From assembly GCF_004364555.1 (NCBI RefSeq), contig NZ_SOAM01000002.1, forward strand, positions 496,001 to 560,000: 64,000 nt of DNA, in the 5' to 3' direction. Positions 14,208 to 64,000 of this stretch are shown in pieces (position 1 is the stretch's first letter; the number at the start of each line of letters is the position of its first letter). The position numbers and the translations under genes were made by a program. Origin of the DNA: Amnibacterium kyonggiense. GTDB taxonomy: Bacteria; Actinomycetota; Actinomycetes; Actinomycetales; Microbacteriaceae. The notes below the pieces were generated by a model. That model saw only the letters and a list, made by a program, of their open reading frames with translations. It was not told the DNA's origin and ran no database searches.

Positions 14208-14840
14208 ATGGTCTTCACCGACTCGTCCGGCCGAGCGCTGACGGACTACCCGCGCCCGTCCGTCGCGGTCGACACGGCCGTCCTCACCGTCGCGGACCGC
14301 CGGCTGCAGGTGGTGCTGGTCGAGTCGGACGGCGAGTTGCGACTCCCGGGCACCTTCCTCCACGAGGGCGAGGTCCTGGCGGACGCGGTGACGCGATCGC
14401 TCGACGAGAAGGCGGGCATCACCGGCATCGACCCGGTCCAGCTGCACGTCTTCGACGCGCTCGGCCGCGACGACCGGGGCTGGGTCCTCTCCGTCGCCCA
14501 CGTCGCCGTCGTCCCGATGACCGCGCTCGACCCGCTCCCCCACCTGACCCCCGTCGACCAGGCGGTCGGCCTCCGGTACGACCACGACCGGATCGTCCGG
14601 CTGGCCGTCGACTGGCTTCGCGACCGCTACCGGGCCACTCCGGACCCGGACGGGCTCCTGCGCGAGGAGTTCACCCTCCGCGATCTGCAGGTGCTGCACG
14701 AGGCGGTCCTCGGCGAACCCGTGATGAAGGACGCGTTCCGACGCGGCATGGTCGACGGCCTCGTCGAGACCGGACGGATGTCGACCGGGACCGTCGGGAA
14801 GCCCGCGCGCCTGTGGCGCCACCGTGATTCGCCCCGGTGA
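14208..14840 (+). CDS. nrtR: NrtR-type NUDIX transcriptional regulator of NAD metabolism
   Basis: A 210-residue protein. It has a NUDIX-like ligand domain (about 15-140) with a degenerate NUDIX box: GTFLHEGEVLADAVTRSLDEKAGI lacks the REL/EE catalytic glutamates. A C-terminal winged helix follows (about 145-210, EEFTLRDLQVLHEAVLGEPVMKDAFRRGM). This is the NrtR architecture; family members are repressors of NAD synthesis/salvage genes that release DNA on binding ADP-ribose. The gene is leaderless (TACAGT 6 nt before ATG). It is divergent from an HD protein, an ADP-ribosylglycohydrolase and the ruined pnuC-nadR genes, which form a coherent ancestral regulon. Confidence 0.87.
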   Translation: MVFTDSSGRALTDYPRPSVAVDTAVLTVADRRLQVVLVESDGELRLPGTFLHEGEVLADAVTRSLDEKAGITGIDPVQLHVFDALGRDDRGWVLSVAHVAVVPMTALDPLPHLTPVDQAVGLRYDHDRIVRLAVDWLRDRYRATPDPDGLLREEFTLRDLQVLHEAVLGEPVMKDAFRRGMVDGLVETGRMSTGTVGKPARLWRHRDSPR

Positions 14841-14917
14841 CGCCTCGCACCTGGACCGGCCTCACCTTCGGGGCGTTCACTGCCCTCATGGACGCGAGCG
14901 GTCAGTAGGAGGTCGAG

Positions 14918-56346: not shown

Positions 56347-56398
56347 ATCGTAAGCGACTTACGCCGTCGTTGACGCATCGCGAACCCCTGCCGATGCT
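56347..56398. promoter_or_regulatory. divergent promoters with HxlR-type operator
   Basis: Perfect palindrome CGTAAG-CGA-CTTACG (56349-56363), the GTAAG(N3)CTTAC form used by HxlR/YodB-type regulators. It overlaps the regulator's own -10 (TACGAT) and lies 7 bp upstream of TTGACG (56370-56375). After a 17-bp spacer, GATGCT (56393-56398) follows as the -10 for the divergent flavoenzyme, whose ATG 56406 comes 7 nt later. Confidence 0.7.
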
Positions 56399-56405
56399 GG
56401 CGGGC

Positions 56406-58643
56406 ATGGTCGACTACGGGCACCCCCTCCGGTTCGGTTCCTTCATCACGCCGTCGGCGACGGCGCCGCAGCGGGTCGTCGACCTCGCGGTGCGGAGCGA
56501 GGAGGTCGGGCTCGACCTCGTGACGTTCCAGGACCACCCGTACCAGCCGGCCTTCCTCGACACGTGGACGCTGCTGTCCTGGGTCGCCGCGCGCACGGAG
56601 CGCATCCACCTCTCGGGCAACGTGCTCAACCTGCCGCTGCGCATCCCGTCCGTGCTCGCGAGCTCGGCCGCGAGCCTCGACCTGCTCTCGGGCGGTCGGG
56701 TCGAGCTCGGCCTCGGCGCGGGCGGCTTCTGGGACGCGATCGCGGCGATGGGCGTGCCGAAGCTGACGCCCGGCGAGAGCGTCAGCGCGCTGTCGGAGGC
56801 GATCGACGTGATCCGCGGCCGCTGGGACGCCGCCGACCGGTCGGTGCTGCGCGCGGGCGGCGACCTCCACCGGGTCGACGGCGCGAAGCGCGGGCCCGCG
56901 CCCGCCCACGCGATCCCGATCTGGGTCGGTGCGCGCGGCCCCCGGATGCTGCGCCTCATCGGGACGAAGGGCGACGGCTGGCTCCCCTCGCTCCCCTGGC
57001 TGCAGCCCGGCGACCTCGCCCGCGGCCAGGCGATCATCGACGGGGCCGCGCAGGCCGCAGGCCGCGATCCGCGCGAGGTCGTCCGGCTCCTCAACATCGA
57101 CGCGGACACGGGCGCCGACGAGCTCGTCGCCCTCGCGCTCGAGGACGGCATCAGCACGTTCATCCTCCCGACGGATGACACGGCGGCCCTCGAGCGCTTC
57201 GCGACGGAGGTCGTGCCCGCGGTCCGCGAGCAGGTCGGCGCCGTACGCGCCGAGCGCGGCACGACGGCGGGCCGCGCCCGCGGCGCGGTCGCGCTCGCGA
57301 AGCGGCGGCCGGGCATCGAGTACGACGGCCTGCCCGCCGCGCTCGCCGAGACGGCGGTGGAGCCCGGCGACCAGGGGTACGCGCGGTACACGTCGAGCTA
57401 CCTGCGCGGCGGTGCACCCGGCCTGATCCTCCGGCCCCGCACGGTGGAGGAGGTGCAGGAGGCGGTGCGCTTCGCGGGCCGCCACCGACACCTCCCGCTC
57501 GGAATCTTCAGCGCGGGCCACGGGCTGTCCGGCCGGTCCTTGAATCGGGACGGCCTGGTCGTCGACGTCGGCACGCTCCGCTCGATCGAGGTGCTCGACG
57601 CGGCAGCCGGGCTCGTGCGCATCGAGCCCGGCGCCCTCTGGGTGGAGGTCGCGGAGGCGCTCGAGCCGCTCGGGCTGGCGATCACGAGCGGCGACTACGG
57701 CGGGGTGGGCGTCGGCGGGCTCGCGACCGCCGGCGGGGTCGGCTGGTTCGCCCGCGAGCACGGGTTGACGATCGACCGCATCCGCGCCGTCGAGGTGGTG
57801 CTCGCCGACGGCTCGTTCGTCCGCGCGACCGCGACGGAGCATCCCGATCTCTTCTGGGCGATGCGCGGGGCGGGCGCGAACTTCGGCGTGGCCGTCGCGT
57901 TCGAGTTCGAGGCGGCGCGGGTCGGCACGATCGCCTTCGCGCAGCTCGCCTTCGACGTGGCGGACACCGCCGCGTTCCTCGAGGGCTGGGGCGCAGCGAT
58001 GGAGGCCGCGGACCGCAGCGTGACCGGCGAGATCATCATCGGCCGCGGCGGCCGCAGCGCCCAGGCGATGCTCGTGGTCGACCACGACGACCCGGACACC
58101 GTCCTCGAGGGGCTGCAGCCATTCGCGGCGATCGCGCCGCTCGTCGACTCGTCCGTCGCGCTCACCTCCTACGCCGGGCTGATGCGGGCGATGGTGAGCG
58201 ACGCCCCGCAGCAGGGGCGGGGCGAGCCCCGGTCGCACTCCGGCAACGTCCCGCACCTCACCCCGGCCGTCAGTCGCGCGCTCGCGGCGCTCATCGACTC
58301 GGGCTCGTCGTACTTCTTCTCGCTGCGCGCCCTCGGCGGCGCGGTGGCCGACGTCCCCGCGGCGGCGACGGCCTTCGCGGGCCGCGACGCGAACTTCACC
58401 GTCGCCGCGTTCGGCAGCCCGGACACCGAGTTCGACGCGCGCTGGCGCGAGCTGCTGCCCGTCCTGGACGGCATGTACCTGAGCTTCGAGTCCGACACCG
58501 GTCCGGAGGTCGTCGCCCGCGCCTTCCCGCCGGCGCACCTCGCGCGCCTCCGGGCGCTCAAGGCGACGTACGACCCGGCCGCGCTGTTCCGCGACAACTT
58601 CTTCATCGCGCCCGAGGAGCGGGAGGAGTCCGCGGTCGCCTGA
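56406..58643 (+). CDS. LLM-class flavin monooxygenase fused to FAD-linked oxidase
   Basis: A 745-residue two-domain enzyme. Residues 1 to about 280 are a luciferase-like (LLM) TIM-barrel oxidoreductase (LRFGSFITPSATAPQRVVDLAVRSEEVG, IHLSGNVLNLPLRIPSVLASSAASLDLLSGGRVELGLGAG). Residues about 310-745 are an FAD-binding PCMH/BBE-type oxidase (GLILRPRTVEEVQEAVRFA, SAGHGLSGRSLNRDGLVVDVG, CGGVGVGGLATAGG-like GVGVGGLATAGGVGWF, C-terminal YDPAALFRDNFFIAP). No obvious linker break or frameshift is seen. ATG 56406 matches the usual LLM N-terminus and sits 7 nt after a -10 box; TTG 56370 would be part of the -35. The HxlR regulator is divergent, suggesting redox or quinone induction. Confidence 0.85.
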   Translation: MVDYGHPLRFGSFITPSATAPQRVVDLAVRSEEVGLDLVTFQDHPYQPAFLDTWTLLSWVAARTERIHLSGNVLNLPLRIPSVLASSAASLDLLSGGRVELGLGAGGFWDAIAAMGVPKLTPGESVSALSEAIDVIRGRWDAADRSVLRAGGDLHRVDGAKRGPAPAHAIPIWVGARGPRMLRLIGTKGDGWLPSLPWLQPGDLARGQAIIDGAAQAAGRDPREVVRLLNIDADTGADELVALALEDGISTFILPTDDTAALERFATEVVPAVREQVGAVRAERGTTAGRARGAVALAKRRPGIEYDGLPAALAETAVEPGDQGYARYTSSYLRGGAPGLILRPRTVEEVQEAVRFAGRHRHLPLGIFSAGHGLSGRSLNRDGLVVDVGTLRSIEVLDAAAGLVRIEPGALWVEVAEALEPLGLAITSGDYGGVGVGGLATAGGVGWFAREHGLTIDRIRAVEVVLADGSFVRATATEHPDLFWAMRGAGANFGVAVAFEFEAARVGTIAFAQLAFDVADTAAFLEGWGAAMEAADRSVTGEIIIGRGGRSAQAMLVVDHDDPDTVLEGLQPFAAIAPLVDSSVALTSYAGLMRAMVSDAPQQGRGEPRSHSGNVPHLTPAVSRALAALIDSGSSYFFSLRALGGAVADVPAAATAFAGRDANFTVAAFGSPDTEFDARWRELLPVLDGMYLSFESDTGPEVVARAFPPAHLARLRALKATYDPAALFRDNFFIAPEEREESAVA

Positions 58644-58682
58644 TCCGCTGGCGGCGACGGTGCCCGCCGCTAGCCTCGCGGA

Positions 58683-61600
58683 GTGACGGATCGGCCGCTG
58701 GTTCGGGTGCTCGGCTCCGTGCGCGCGACCGACCGGTCGGGCGGCGACAGCGCGCCCGCCGGCGCGATGCCCCGCCGGCTCCTCCTCGCGCTGGCGCTCG
58801 CCGGCGCGGAAGGGCGGAGCGTCGGCGCGCTGACGGACGACCTGTGGCCGGACGACCCGCCGCGCAACCCGCGGGCCGCGATCCAGATGCTCGTCTCACG
58901 CGTCCGCGCGACCGCGGCGGACGGACTTCTCGAGTCCACCGTCACCGGTTACCGCGTCATCGCCTCGGACCTCGCGCTCGCGGAGCGGGCCGGCGCCGCT
59001 GGAGCCGAGGAGGCCCTGGCCCTCTGGAGGGGTGAGCCGGGCGCCGACCTCGATCAGGACGCGCTGGCCGACGAGCTCCTCGAGCGGGCGACTCGGGCGC
59101 GGGTGCGCCTGCTCCGCCTCGCCGGGCAGCGGCTGCTCGACGAGGGCCGACCCGCCGCCGCGGTGCCGCTGCTCGAGCGCCTCGTCGAAGCGCTGCCGCT
59201 CGACGGCCCGGCGACCGCGCTGCTCATGCGCGCCGCCGCGGACGACGGCCGCGTCGACGCGGCGCTCGGCGCCTTCGCCGCCCACCGCGAGCGCGTCGCC
59301 GACGCCCTCGGGGCCGACCCCGACCCGGACCTCGTCCGCCTGAACACCGCGCTGCTCCGGACGCAGGCATCGCCCACGTCCGCCGAGCTCGTGGGCGTCC
59401 GCGCGGCGACGACGCCGCTCCTCGGCCGCGAGCCGGACCTGGTGCTCCTCGGGACGACCGTGCCCGCGCACCGGCTCACGTCGATCGTCGGTACCGGCGG
59501 CCTCGGCAAGACGCGGCTCGCGCACGAGACCGCACTCCGCCTCGCGGACCGGTACGAGCGCATCGTCTTCGCCGAGCTCGCGGGCGCGCAGGAGGATGCC
59601 GACGTCGAGCTCGTGGTCGGCGCCGCCGTCGGCGCCCGGCCGGTCCAGCGCGCCCGGCGCCTGGCGGAGGTGCTGCCGCCCGACCTGCCGACCCGCACCC
59701 GGGAGGCGCTCGCGGCGCGTCGGACGCTGCTCGTGCTCGACAACTGCGAGCACGTCGTCGACGCGGCGGCGTCCCTCACCGCCGACCTGCTCGGCGCCGT
59801 GCCGGGGCTCACCGTGCTCACCACGAGCCGGGTGCCCCTCCTGCTCCCGGGTGAGGCGGTCGTCGCTCCGCGGCCGCTCGACGCGGATACGGACGCGGCA
59901 GCGCTCTTCATCGCCCGGGCGACAGCGGCGCGGCCGGGCGTCTCGCTCGACCTCGCCCTCGTCGAGCGGGTCTGCTCCCGCCTCGACGGGCTGCCGCTCG
60001 CCATCGAACTCGCGGCGGCGCGCCTCCGGTCGATGGCGCTGCCCGAGCTGGACGCGCGGCTGGCCGACCGCTTCGCGGTGCTCGTGGGCGGGGACCGCAC
60101 CGCGCCCGACCGCCACCGCACCCTCCTCGCGGTCATCGAGTGGAGCCGTCGGCTCCTCTCCCCCGCCGCCGCCGACGCCCTGACCGCGCTCGCGGTCTTC
60201 CCGGACGGCTTCACCGCCTCGGCGGCCGATGCGCTGCTCGGCACCGACGCCGCCGAGCTCCTCACCGAGCTCGTGGACCAGTCGCTGCTCACCGTCGGCG
60301 AGGCACGGCCGGGTCGGAGCCGGTACCGCATGCTCGAGACCGTCCGCGAGTACGGGCTGCGGGAGCTGCGGGACACGGGTCGACTCACCGACGCCCTCGC
60401 CCGGTTCGACGCCTGGGCCGTCCGCTTCGCGCGGGCGACCTCGCCCGGCCTGCTCGCCGGCCTCGACCCGAGGGCCGCGGGCGCGGTCGCCGAGGAGGAG
60501 GAGACGCTGCTCGCGATCGTCCGGCGGGACGCGCGCACCGAGGCGGCCGTCGCTGCGCTCGCCCTGCTCACCGAGTCGTGGCTGTACCGCGGCGAGTTCG
60601 AGCCGATCGCCGGGGTGCTCCCCGCCCTGCTCGAGGCCGGCCGGGTCCCGCCGGCGTCGCCCGACGCGGTGGCCGAGACGGTTCGAGCCCTCGCCATCGG
60701 CACCTCGGTCGCGCTCATCGCCTCGAGCCCCGAGGCGCTCCGCGCGCTCGCGCTCCTCCGCCGCGTGGTGCGCCGCGCGGACGTGTCGCCCGGGTTCTGG
60801 ACGGTCTTCGCGCGCGAGCTCCTGCTCAGCCCGGACTTCACCGCGGGCGTCGGCGCGCTCGACGCCCTCTCCGCCGACCCGGACCCGCTCGTCGCCGCGT
60901 TCGCGCTCATGATGCGCTCGCAGCTCGCCGAGAACGCGGGCCGGCTCGACGCGGCGCTGGACGACCTGACCGCTGCCGACGCGATCACGACGCGGCACGG
61001 CTACACGTGGCTCCGTCACCTCGGCCGGATCAACATCGCCTCGCTCCGCAGCCAGCGCGGGGAGGCCGCCGCCGCGCTCGCGGTCGCCCTCCGGACGCAG
61101 CGGGAGATCGAGGAGCTCGGCGTGGAGACCGACGTGCGGCAGCTCGAGTGGCTGGTCGCCGCCTGCCGCCTGTCGATCGGCGAGGTGGACGAGGCCGAGC
61201 GCGGCTTCGAGCGCCTCGCCGAGTCCCGCGGCCGGGGCGGCGCGGAGGACGAGGCGGACAACCGCGTGCTGGCGGCCGCGGGGCTCGCGGAGGTCGCGAC
61301 GGTGCGGCGGGACGTGCCCCTCGCGCTCGCCCGTTGGGACGAGGTGCTGGCGATCCAGGCGCGATCCGGCTCCCCCTGGCGGCTGCTCGCCGCTGGCGGG
61401 GCGCTCGCGGCCCGGGTGGAGCTCGGCGTCCCGGTCGCCGACCTCGCCGTGCCGTACCGCCGGCTGCGCACGCGGCTCATCGCGGTCGCCCGGCTGCAGA
61501 GCGCCCGCATCGACGCGCCCGTCACGGGCTCAGGGCTCGTCGGCCTCGCGGCCGCCCTCCGTCCCGTCGACCCGGAGGCGGCGCGGGGGCTGCTCCGGCT

Positions 61601-61751
61601 CGGCGTCGCACTCGCCGCGCGGCGGGACCTGCCCTCAGTCGCGCGCGCCCTGGCCGGGGTCGCGCCCGCCGAGCCGCCCGGGCCGGGCGCCGCAGCGCGG
61701 GTGATCGCGCTGCTGCGATCACCCGCGGTGCGACGCGGACCGGGCGGCTGA
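58683..61751 (+). CDS. BTAD/NB-ARC-type transcriptional regulator (SARP/AfsR-like)
   Basis: A 1022-residue regulator. The N-terminal OmpR-type winged helix (about 1-98, VRVLGSVRA...LLLALALAGAEGRSVGALTDDLWPDDPPRNPRAAIQMLVSRVR) is followed by a BTAD domain (about 100-245, LERATRARVRLLRLAGQ...AAHRERVADALGADPDPDL). An NB-ARC-like ATPase comes next, with P-loop VGTGGLGKT at about 270, Walker B LLVLDNCEH at about 348 and LDGLPLAIELAAARLRSM. The C-terminal half is TPR-like. Leaderless GTG: TAGCCT 6 nt upstream. It is convergent with the DrrAB-type exporter operon, whose promoter carries three 11-bp-phased repeats, the expected target. Confidence 0.9.
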   Translation: MTDRPLVRVLGSVRATDRSGGDSAPAGAMPRRLLLALALAGAEGRSVGALTDDLWPDDPPRNPRAAIQMLVSRVRATAADGLLESTVTGYRVIASDLALAERAGAAGAEEALALWRGEPGADLDQDALADELLERATRARVRLLRLAGQRLLDEGRPAAAVPLLERLVEALPLDGPATALLMRAAADDGRVDAALGAFAAHRERVADALGADPDPDLVRLNTALLRTQASPTSAELVGVRAATTPLLGREPDLVLLGTTVPAHRLTSIVGTGGLGKTRLAHETALRLADRYERIVFAELAGAQEDADVELVVGAAVGARPVQRARRLAEVLPPDLPTRTREALAARRTLLVLDNCEHVVDAAASLTADLLGAVPGLTVLTTSRVPLLLPGEAVVAPRPLDADTDAAALFIARATAARPGVSLDLALVERVCSRLDGLPLAIELAAARLRSMALPELDARLADRFAVLVGGDRTAPDRHRTLLAVIEWSRRLLSPAAADALTALAVFPDGFTASAADALLGTDAAELLTELVDQSLLTVGEARPGRSRYRMLETVREYGLRELRDTGRLTDALARFDAWAVRFARATSPGLLAGLDPRAAGAVAEEEETLLAIVRRDARTEAAVAALALLTESWLYRGEFEPIAGVLPALLEAGRVPPASPDAVAETVRALAIGTSVALIASSPEALRALALLRRVVRRADVSPGFWTVFARELLLSPDFTAGVGALDALSADPDPLVAAFALMMRSQLAENAGRLDAALDDLTAADAITTRHGYTWLRHLGRINIASLRSQRGEAAAALAVALRTQREIEELGVETDVRQLEWLVAACRLSIGEVDEAERGFERLAESRGRGGAEDEADNRVLAAAGLAEVATVRRDVPLALARWDEVLAIQARSGSPWRLLAAGGALAARVELGVPVADLAVPYRRLRTRLIAVARLQSARIDAPVTGSGLVGLAAALRPVDPEAARGLLRLGVALAARRDLPSVARALAGVAPAEPPGPGAAARVIALLRSPAVRRGPGG

Positions 61752-61761
61752 GGGGCCGGGC

Positions 61762-62568
61762 TCAGGCCTTGCGCATGTAGGCCCGCACGGTGAGCGGCGC
61801 GAAGACCGCGACGACCACTGCGGCGCCGAGCAGCGACAGCCACACGTCGCCCGTCACCTGCTGCTCGTTCACCATCGTCCGCACGGCGGTGATGAGGTGC
61901 GAGACGGGGTTGATCTCCGCGAAGACCTTGAGCGGCTCGGGCAGCGTCCCCGTCGGCACGAAGGCGTTCGAGAGGAACGTGAGCGGGAACAGCACGAGGA
62001 ACGAGATGCCCTGCACGGAGCCCGCGGTGCGGGCGAGCATGCCGAAGAGCGCGAAGATCCAGCTGAGCGACCAGGCGACGACGATCACGAGCAGGCCCGC
62101 CGCGACGGTCCACCCGAGGTGGTCGAACACCTGGTGATAGCCCATGGTCCCGCCGACCACGAAGGTGATCGTCGTCGCGATGGCGTAGCGGACGGTGTCG
62201 GCGAGCAGGGCGCCGGCGAGCGGGGCGATCCGGGCGATCGGGAGGGACCGGAACCGGTCGAACACGCCCTTGTCCATGTCCTCCCGCAGCTGCACCCCGG
62301 TGACGACGGAGCCGGTGATGACCGTCTGCACGAGGATGCCCGGGATCAGCGTGGGCAGGTACTTCGTGACATCGCCGGAGATCGCGCCGCCGAAGATGTA
62401 GGCGAACATCACCGTGAAGATGATCGGCTGGAGCGTCACGTCGAAGAGCTGCTCAGGGGTGCGCCGCACCTTGAGCAGGCCGCGGTAGGCCATCGTCAGC
62501 GACTGGCCGACGATGCGGGTGATGCCGTTCCGCGGCTGCGCCGCGGCGATGGATGCGACGGCGGTCAT
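61762..62568 (-). CDS. DrrB-type ABC-2 exporter permease
   Basis: A 268-residue membrane protein with six helices of the ABC-2 type (RTPEQLFDVTLQPIIFTVMFAYIFGGAI, then FLVLFPLTFLSNAFVPTGTLPEPLKVFAEINPVSH and VNEQQVTGD). The latter block is the DrrB/daunorubicin-resistance permease signature. It exports hydrophobic molecules (antibiotics or lipids) together with the adjacent ATPase. Start ATG 62568 overlaps the ATPase stop (ATGA). Confidence 0.92.
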   Translation of the reverse strand: MTAVASIAAAQPRNGITRIVGQSLTMAYRGLLKVRRTPEQLFDVTLQPIIFTVMFAYIFGGAISGDVTKYLPTLIPGILVQTVITGSVVTGVQLREDMDKGVFDRFRSLPIARIAPLAGALLADTVRYAIATTITFVVGGTMGYHQVFDHLGWTVAAGLLVIVVAWSLSWIFALFGMLARTAGSVQGISFLVLFPLTFLSNAFVPTGTLPEPLKVFAEINPVSHLITAVRTMVNEQQVTGDVWLSLLGAAVVVAVFAPLTVRAYMRKA

Positions 62569-63563
62569 GCCATCACCTCGTCCTTCTCGGCCGTCTCGGC
62601 CGCGTCGTCCTGGTCGGCCCCGTGGCCGGTGATGGCGAGGAAGACCTCGTCGAGCGTGGGCTTCTGCACGCCGAACTCGGCGAGCCGGATGCCCGCGTCC
62701 CGCAGGTCCACGAGCAGATCGGTGACCCGGTCCGGGTCCTGGAGCGGCACGGTGAGCCAGGCGCGCTCGGCGCTCGCCACGGGCTGCACGCCGACGCGAG
62801 CACGGATGCGCGCCTCGGCGACCGCGAGGTCGGCCGGCTCCACGAGCCGGAGCTGCAGGGAGGCGGTGCCGACGGACGCCTTGAGGTCGTCGGAGGTGCC
62901 CTCCGCGACGACCCGACCGCGGTCGATGACGGCGATCCGGTCGGCGAGCTGGTCGGCCTCGTCGAGGTACTGCGTGGTGAGCAGGACCGTCGAGCCGGTC
63001 TGCACGAGCTCCCGGATCGTGTCCCACATCTGCGCCCGTGTGCGGGGGTCGAGCCCCGTGGTCGGCTCGTCGAGGAAGATCAGGGGCGGCTGGGCGATGA
63101 GACTCGCCGCGAGGTCGAGCCGGCGCCGCATGCCGCCGGAGAACTTCTTCAGCGGGCGCTTCGCCGCCTCGGTGAGGGAGAACCGGTCGAGCAGGTCGAC
63201 GGCCTTCGCCCTGGCCTGCTTGCCGGAGAGGCCGAGCAGCCGCCCGAACACGACGAGGTTCTCGGTGGCGGACAGCGTCTCGTCGACCGAGGCGTACTGC
63301 CCCGTCACGCCGATCAGGCCGCGCACGGTGGCGGCCTCCTTGACGACGTCGTGGCCGAGCACGCGGGCCGACCCGCCGTCCGGCTTCAGCAGGGTGGCGA
63401 GCATGGAGATGGTGGTGGTCTTCCCGGCGCCGTTCGGGCCGAGGACGCCGTAGACGCTGCCCGGCTGCACGACGAGGTCGACGCCGTCGACGGCGCGGTT
63501 GTCGCCGAAGACCTTGACGAGGCCGACCGCCTCGATGGCGGGTGCGGTGGTTGAGGTGGACAT
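62565..63563 (-). CDS. DrrA-type ABC exporter ATPase
   Basis: A 332-residue ATPase with Walker A GPNGAGKTT (about 43-51), signature FSGGMRRRL (about 140), Walker B LIFLDEPTTGLD (about 160) and a DrrA-type C-terminal extension (TLDEVFLAITGHG, the CREEM-like motif region). It powers the DrrB-type permease encoded next. No ribosome site is present. CACAGT 7 nt before the ATG suggests a leaderless message whose promoter overlaps three GTGTGAGC direct repeats, so the operon is probably activated by the adjacent BTAD regulator. Confidence 0.93.
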   Translation of the reverse strand: MSTSTTAPAIEAVGLVKVFGDNRAVDGVDLVVQPGSVYGVLGPNGAGKTTTISMLATLLKPDGGSARVLGHDVVKEAATVRGLIGVTGQYASVDETLSATENLVVFGRLLGLSGKQARAKAVDLLDRFSLTEAAKRPLKKFSGGMRRRLDLAASLIAQPPLIFLDEPTTGLDPRTRAQMWDTIRELVQTGSTVLLTTQYLDEADQLADRIAVIDRGRVVAEGTSDDLKASVGTASLQLRLVEPADLAVAEARIRARVGVQPVASAERAWLTVPLQDPDRVTDLLVDLRDAGIRLAEFGVQKPTLDEVFLAITGHGADQDDAAETAEKDEVMA

Positions 63564-63570
63564 GGGAGGA

Positions 63571-63615
63571 ACTGTGCCGACAGTCGCTCACACGGCGCTC
63601 ACACCCCGCTCACAC
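63571..63615 (-). promoter_or_regulatory. SARP-type direct repeats and promoter of DrrAB operon
   Basis: On the coding (minus) strand GTGTGAGC occurs three times at exact 11-bp steps (63615-63608, 63604-63597, 63593-63586). After 9 nt follows CACAGT (63576-63571) as -10, then 7 nt to the ATG. Direct heptamer-like repeats phased at one helical turn just upstream of the -10 are the recognised binding pattern of SARP/BTAD activators. Confidence 0.78.
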
Positions 63616-63711
63616 GCCCCGTGGGCGCGCTCGACCGGCGTCCAGTCCCGCCGACGCTCCTCCCCAGGTCCTGATCCGACCGCTGTCGGTGGCCGCGCCT
63701 ACGGTGCTCGG

Positions 63712-64000
63712 ATGTTCCTCTCCGGCGGCGTCGCGGTGCTGTCGGCCACCGATCTCACGAACGCGACCGTCTGCGAGTGGTCCGTGCTCCGTCGCCTCGA
63801 CGCGCGGCTCGGCCGCGTCGAGGCCGTGCCGGATCCGGTCGACGCCCTCCGAGACCGGGCCGCGCGGCTCGGCGACGCGCACGAGGAGCGCCAGCTCGCT
63901 GCCTACCGCGCGCAGCACGGCGACGCGGTCGTCGAGATCGAGCGCCCGGCGGACTCCCGCGACGTCGATGCCCTGCGGGCGGCGCAGGACCGCACGCTCG
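63712..64000 (+). CDS. RecB-like nuclease (TM0106-type), C-terminus beyond window
   Basis: The first 96 residues are visible: MFLSGGVAVLSATDLTNATVCEWSVLRRLDARLGRV, then LGDAHEERQLAAYRAQHGDAVVEIERP. The SATDLTNATVCEW and LGDAHE motifs match the start of TM0106-family RecB-like nucleases, which carry an N-terminal Cys and end in an ATPase/helicase region. It probably processes DNA in repair or defence. Leaderless: TACGGT (63700-63705) 6 nt before the ATG. Confidence 0.72.
   Translation, partial: MFLSGGVAVLSATDLTNATVCEWSVLRRLDARLGRVEAVPDPVDALRDRAARLGDAHEERQLAAYRAQHGDAVVEIERPADSRDVDALRAAQDRTL

Follow-up and report, generated by a model that had tools for sequence, protein, structure and literature searches.

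DNA evidence for an AfsR-like large SARP as the probable dedicated switch of a single DrrAB-type exporter in actinobacteria

SARPs are known mainly as activators of antibiotic production, and the locus described here raises the question of what such a regulator does beside a DrrAB-type exporter. In the window, by which we mean the whole 64-kb stretch of Amnibacterium kyonggiense DNA that was analysed, the gene of a BTAD protein converges on a drrAB operon, and the original prediction held that three phased repeats ahead of drrA link the two into a self-contained module.

Read on the minus strand from 63615 to 63561, the DNA in front of drrA runs GTGTGAGC-GGG-GTGTGAGC-GCC-GTGTGAGC-gactgtcgg-CACAGT-tcctccc-ATG. 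The distal (63608..63615), middle (63597..63604) and proximal (63586..63593) copies of GTGTGAGC, all on the minus strand, follow each other in steps of exactly 11 bp, and 9 nt separate the proximal copy from the −10-like hexamer CACAGT (63571..63576, minus strand), which itself lies 7 nt ahead of the drrA ATG (63563–63561). The three perfect repeats that had been claimed are present and were even understated: since the triple match also begins at 63585, the repeat unit is the 9-mer GTGTGAGCG. No SD-like GGAGG was found between the hexamer and the ATG, so that the proposed leaderless start of drrA is consistent with this geometry.

Within the window, this array is the sole case of an 8-mer repeated identically three times at 11-bp steps, and none of 100 first-order Markov windows contained such an arrangement. 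Doublets under looser matching are no rarity, the two-repeat pattern with up to 3 mismatches giving 3 matches in the window where 1.14 were expected. At up to 2 mismatches, two repeats recovered the drrA array and two weak sites in the 3.7-Mb genome, and C4:82966 of the same genome carries a GYGTGAGC doublet with 1 mismatch. When two repeats and the hexamer were sought together, allowing up to 3 mismatches, the drrA array was the sole genome match, and the reversed control pattern gave 1 match.

The gene behind this promoter, drrA (62565..63563, minus strand), encodes a 332-residue ABC ATPase that scores 364 bits against TIGR01188 (cut-off 312.45), placing it among the DrrA-type exporter ATPases, and 31.3 bits against PF13732, the DrrA1-3 C-terminal domain (cut-off 27.4). 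The ATG of the drrB-type permease gene (61762..62568, minus strand; PF01061) overlaps the drrA stop codon by 4 nt, and its product stays under the cut-offs of both TIGR00025 and TIGR01247. The stop codons of drrB and of the convergent regulator gene are 10 nt apart (61745–61770), and no intrinsic terminator was found in 58400–64000, so the two convergent transcripts may overlap.

The convergent gene (58683..61751, plus strand) encodes a 1022-residue protein with the build of a large SARP. An N-terminal OmpR-type winged helix (residues about 8–95, 58704..58967, plus strand, placed by alignment to AfsR) is followed by a BTAD domain (residues 105–225, 58995..59357, plus strand), which scores 69.2 bits against PF03704; both AfsR and EmbR share this order by sequence and fold. 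The approximately 1000-residue layout of large SARPs, with a central NB-ARC/NOD part and a C-terminal TPR-type part, is reproduced in length, in fold and in a structure model (pLDDT 86.1, pTM 0.63), whose helices at residues 568–1011 form a putative sensor part (60384..61715, plus strand). The NB-ARC/TPR architecture that had been predicted holds by fold, as Foldseek placed the STAND-TPR structure 6mfv first, with Apaf-1 also among the top folds and the AfsR SARP domain at rank 12, and by the helical model; it does not hold by Pfam, where NB-ARC reaches 21.3 bits, just below the cut-off of 23.5, and no TPR family matched at E 0.001. Among 25 aligned sequences, W55, P60, R73 and R75 are invariant and stand opposite the AfsR DNA-contact residues W74, P79, R92 and R94; other contact positions have changed, T88 and K95 of AfsR being M69 and A76 here. 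The fourth mark of the family, direct repeats of 11 bp (or 22 bp) with a short and constant spacing to the −10, is found at drrA. Against the AfsR equivalog model NF053617 the protein scores 61.9 bits (cut-off 1430), and judged by its sequence it is AfsR-like and not AfsR. A PF03704 search of the genome returned a single match, the regulator convergent to drrAB, which extends to the whole genome the earlier claim that it is the only BTAD protein in the window; this genome has one BTAD match and one such promoter. A 757-residue ORF at 56370–58643 (plus strand), a luciferase-like monooxygenase fused to an FAD-binding oxidoreductase domain, ends 39 nt before the regulator start and among the loci searched matches only Amnibacterium setariae (L016/L097, 90% identity).

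How far the pair travels together was surveyed in 142 loci that encode a regulator relative: the best 80 named genome contigs out of 567 encoding one, the locus of the window itself, a further locus from the genus and 60 from the family. The best 80 include Amnibacterium, Oerskovia, Frondihabitans, Rhodococcus, Skermania, Williamsia, Pseudonocardia, Actinomadura, Glycomyces and Streptomyces, and the sampled loci are related to one another. A DrrA gene converges on the regulator gene in 129 of the 142. Among the remaining 13, one locus (L123) carries drrA in the same direction with an array just before it, in another (L042) the contig stops after drrB, and the other 11 lack both an array and a DrrA gene adjacent to the regulator. 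Clustering of the neighbouring proteins put the regulator in 128 loci, DrrA in 124, a 274-residue cluster in the drrB position in 44 and the next cluster in 32, the clusters of 25–32 loci being Streptomyces-type loci as judged by example ids. No third gene common across lineages was found near the pair within the short flanks that were available (about 1.5 kb on one side for the 60 family loci), and the self-contained module therefore fits, the regulator and the exporter being all that is common across lineages within these flanks. The best reading is that the drrAB unit lies outside any conserved biosynthetic cluster. One locus titled Kitasatospora arboriphila closely resembles that of Williamsia muralis (L040, L023; same match coordinates) and is perhaps a mislabelled or contaminated record.

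A search of related genomes for the repeats had been suggested together with the original prediction, and it bore the repeats out. Counting triples by identity in at least 6 of 8 columns and using no motif model, we found 11-bp triples upstream of drrA in 81 of 129 loci, and at twelve other periods between 8 and 20 in 0–8 of 129. Controls at period 11 gave 3 triples in 1290 shuffles, none in 129 regulator upstreams, 3 in 3741 random tiles and 2 in 619 upstreams of other long ORFs; of these last two, one (L136) seems to be a drrA array seen from the opposite side and the other (L079) is a different repeat. After thinning to 38 loci whose DrrA proteins are less than 80% identical, 23 of 38 retained triples, with 0–2 at periods 9, 10, 12 and 13. 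That the repeats are a neutral tandem duplication or low-complexity DNA, as slippage can create short tandem units, is an explanation to which we give next to no weight, because the 11-bp phase and the 9-nt spacing are kept across lineages despite different words and random tiles of the same loci so rarely yield a triple.

The arrays vary in detail. The drrA upstreams of L117 and L118 carry longer arrays of 8 and 6 phased units by matrix, and in L034, L081, L085, L177, L179 and L181 the middle unit is degenerate, leaving two good repeats 22 bp apart. The different repeat of L079, CAAGAACCCG, also at 11-bp steps, occurs in several copies at about 14740–14850 (plus strand) upstream of an ORF that by eye resembles an MFS transporter, and perhaps marks another SARP-exporter pair.

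The relation of the array to the promoter is as well kept as the phase. Of 116 arrays placed without using the hexamer, 13 of 129 loci scoring below 18 having been left out, 112 have nAnnnT separated from the last 8-bp core by exactly 9 nt, 89 have C as the first base of the hexamer and 98 contain three repeats; in the thinned set the 9-nt spacing to nAnnnT is found in 31 of 32. The start codon in the drrA frame lies 6–7 nt past the hexamer, the leaderless geometry, in 56 of the 116, at least 16 nt past it in 50, and at other distances in 10. Array and hexamer together, scored with a matrix trained on these same loci, passed a score of 8 at 119 of 128 drrA upstreams; among 126 regulator upstreams none passed, and among 2423 tiles 10 did. 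L152 was dropped from this count because its stretch ends inside drrA, and 3 regulator upstreams were too short. Most of the 9 drrA upstreams under the threshold show degenerate repeats or a variant hexamer by eye (L051, L068, L034, L081, L085, L142). A scan of 4.27 Mb on both strands for three repeats plus hexamer returned 104 matches at drrA and 3 others, namely the window's own array and two further drrA-upstream arrays (L105, L123). Autoregulation was considered and rejected, as a score of 8 is reached by none of the 126 regulator upstreams and a score of 6 by just 1 of them.

This geometry also bears on the direction of control. As the array overlaps the promoter, the regulator might bind it and yet repress drrAB until released by a ligand, and a negatively acting SARP, Atr32, is reported in PMC10972967. 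Against such repression, which we hold to be unlikely, stands the spacing to a weak CAnnnT −10, which equals that of SARP-activated afsS, and a search of 58400–64000 turned up no sigma-70-type promoter that has a −35; on these two grounds an activator is expected.

The array could in principle belong to the exporter gene alone, or to another factor, and the distribution of the regulator separates these cases. Among 398 family genomes, 85 have the regulator (E up to 1e-60), and every one of them also has the DrrA orthologue (E up to 1e-120), which is present in 91 genomes overall. Of the six genomes with the orthologue alone at these cut-offs, five show no regulator match and no array in the stretch analysed; the sixth, G379, has an imperfect array and a convergent gene for a diverged NB-ARC protein with no Pfam match to BTAD. 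Three exporter-only loci (L165 4138–4776, L166 5535–5993, L167 5677–6450) encode a small Clp_N-domain protein immediately upstream of drrA, the other two having been read by eye, and these proteins look as if another type of regulator had taken over the exporter.

For a held-out comparison we used 40 of 69 DrrA matches across the phylum, from 37 of 63 genomes. At score 6, arrays were present in 7 of 9 loci with a convergent regulator and in 0 of 31 without (Fisher p 2e-6); the nine had been chosen knowing that a regulator was nearby, their promoters not being known, and in DNA none of their best matches to the training loci exceeds 78% identity. Stricter cuts left 6 of 9 at score 8 and 5 of 9 at score 10, with 0 of 31 without regulator throughout, and the low-scoring L174, L177 and L179 show degenerate or 22-bp-spaced repeats by eye. 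The held-out counts, together with the lack of arrays at the five regulator-less orthologues, place the array with the regulator and not with the pump, and the proposed link between BTAD protein and exporter is thereby supported: the repeats are conserved and tied to the presence of the regulator.

The same counts weigh on a second candidate, another factor using 11-nt repeats such as PhoP, beside which the SARP-type regulator would be a mere neighbour. PhoP uses a PHO box of 11-nt direct repeats, and the plus-strand unit GCTCACAC at 11-nt steps resembles a PHO-box direct repeat. We nevertheless regard this as very unlikely: the arrays follow the regulator (7 of 9 against 0 of 31, and none at the five orthologues lacking it), the repeat word varies by lineage where a conserved global factor should keep one word, and two repeats with hexamer occur just once in the genome.

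The variation in the word is considerable, with GTGTGAGC, TGTCGGTG, GTGAAACC and GTGTCAGC among the operator words that differ by lineage. GTGTGAGC is shared by Amnibacterium, Glycomyces and some Actinomadura, other Actinomadura use GTGAAAGC or CTGAAACC, Streptomyces uses TGTCGGTG, and the word types GTGTCAGC, GTGTAAGC and GTGACAGC belong to family loci and Oerskovia. Doublets of GYGTGAGC with at most 1 mismatch also occur in genus genomes without regulator (G002, G004, G006), and neither DrrA nor regulator is present at the three such loci that were read (L159, L161 and L162). The Streptomyces members mostly have G at the sixth place of the word together with G at the position of AfsR S91, a pairing that probably reflects a single event. 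The aligned helices of 129 regulators were inspected by eye for a simple code pairing residues with bases. In partial Mantel tests that allow for DrrA and NB-ARC distance, operator word and HTH were only weakly linked, with r 0.13 (n=112), and r 0.20 (n=77) without Streptomyces-like words; the p of 0.002 in each is the smallest possible with 499 permutations. As this link is weak, no recognition code is claimed. On the sensor side, the C-terminal part of the regulator is its least conserved part, with a median pairwise identity of 23% where the NB-ARC part reaches 50% and DrrA 52%, and this divergence would fit, without proving, a sensor that tracks changing ligands.

Taken as a mechanism, we consider it highly probable that an AfsR-like STAND large SARP activates one DrrAB exporter in a one-regulator/one-exporter unit. 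A signal would be sensed through the NB-ARC ATPase and the helical C-terminal part of the regulator, which would then bind side by side to the 11-bp phased direct repeats covering the −35 region of the drrA promoter and recruit RNA polymerase to the CAnnnT −10 element, 9 nt downstream of the repeats. Transcription would start at or next to the drrA ATG, switching on the overlapping drrAB genes, and both the ligand and the exported substrate are presumed in this scheme. More tentatively, and with a little less confidence than doubt, we suggest that the unit represents a widespread actinobacterial NLR-like (STAND) switch for one exporter, whose fast-diverging helical sensor would recognise lineage-specific toxic molecules and turn on a conserved DrrAB pump, the operator word co-diversifying with the recognition helix. 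If true, the switch family would amount to a natural catalogue of how SARPs recognise DNA, with every member at hand as a reporter for its ligand.

Since the pump promoter keeps phased repeats at a fixed distance, regulator and exporter can be tested as a dedicated switch. DNA evidence ties a large SARP to a single exporter in many actinobacterial lineages, providing a genome-reading rule that links sensor to target and more than 100 natural regulator/operator pairs as data on how SARPs choose their repeat word. The unit also offers a simple reporter to find what STAND sensors respond to and what DrrAB pumps export.

The closest known relative is the AfsR-afsS system of Streptomyces coelicolor, with which the regulator shares the SARP domain, NB-ARC/NOD and TPR-like part (E 3.6e-16; Foldseek TM 0.67 on the AfsR chain length). 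According to PMC10936776, AfsR binds 11-bp direct repeats at afsS, contacting the first 8 bp of each, ahead of a −10 CACTGT, close to the CACAGT at drrA; for SARP promoters in general the same paper puts the −10 8 bp beyond the 3′ repeat, whereas our 9 nt are counted from the 8-bp core. AfsR differs in that its regulation is global and its afs box at afsS has two repeats, the drrA unit having mostly three repeats and an exporter as target. PimR-pimM (SARP-LAL), described in PMC5930380, likewise has a three-repeat main operator and a unique target gene; there, however, the operator does not overlap the −35 box, the target is another regulator and the C-terminal half is of guanylate cyclase/LAL type. 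On the exporter side, the DrrAB and Otr(C) ABC exporters resemble the present one through DrrA, a member of family TIGR01188 above cut-off, but the DrrB and Otr(C) models stay under their cut-offs for the window protein. A SARP acting on drrAB-type resistance genes is itself reportedly known, as DnrI is said to bind drrAB in Streptomyces peucetius (attributed to Prija et al., 2017); DnrI belongs to the daunorubicin cluster, whereas here regulator and exporter alone are common across lineages in the short flanks. A stand-alone, widely conserved regulator/exporter unit with lineage-specific words was not found in the titles and abstracts of openly accessible journal papers among the matches listed. 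SARPs, 11-bp repeats, three-repeat operators as in PimR and a SARP on drrAB as in DnrI are thus already known, and what is new among the papers listed is the widespread stand-alone unit of regulator and exporter.
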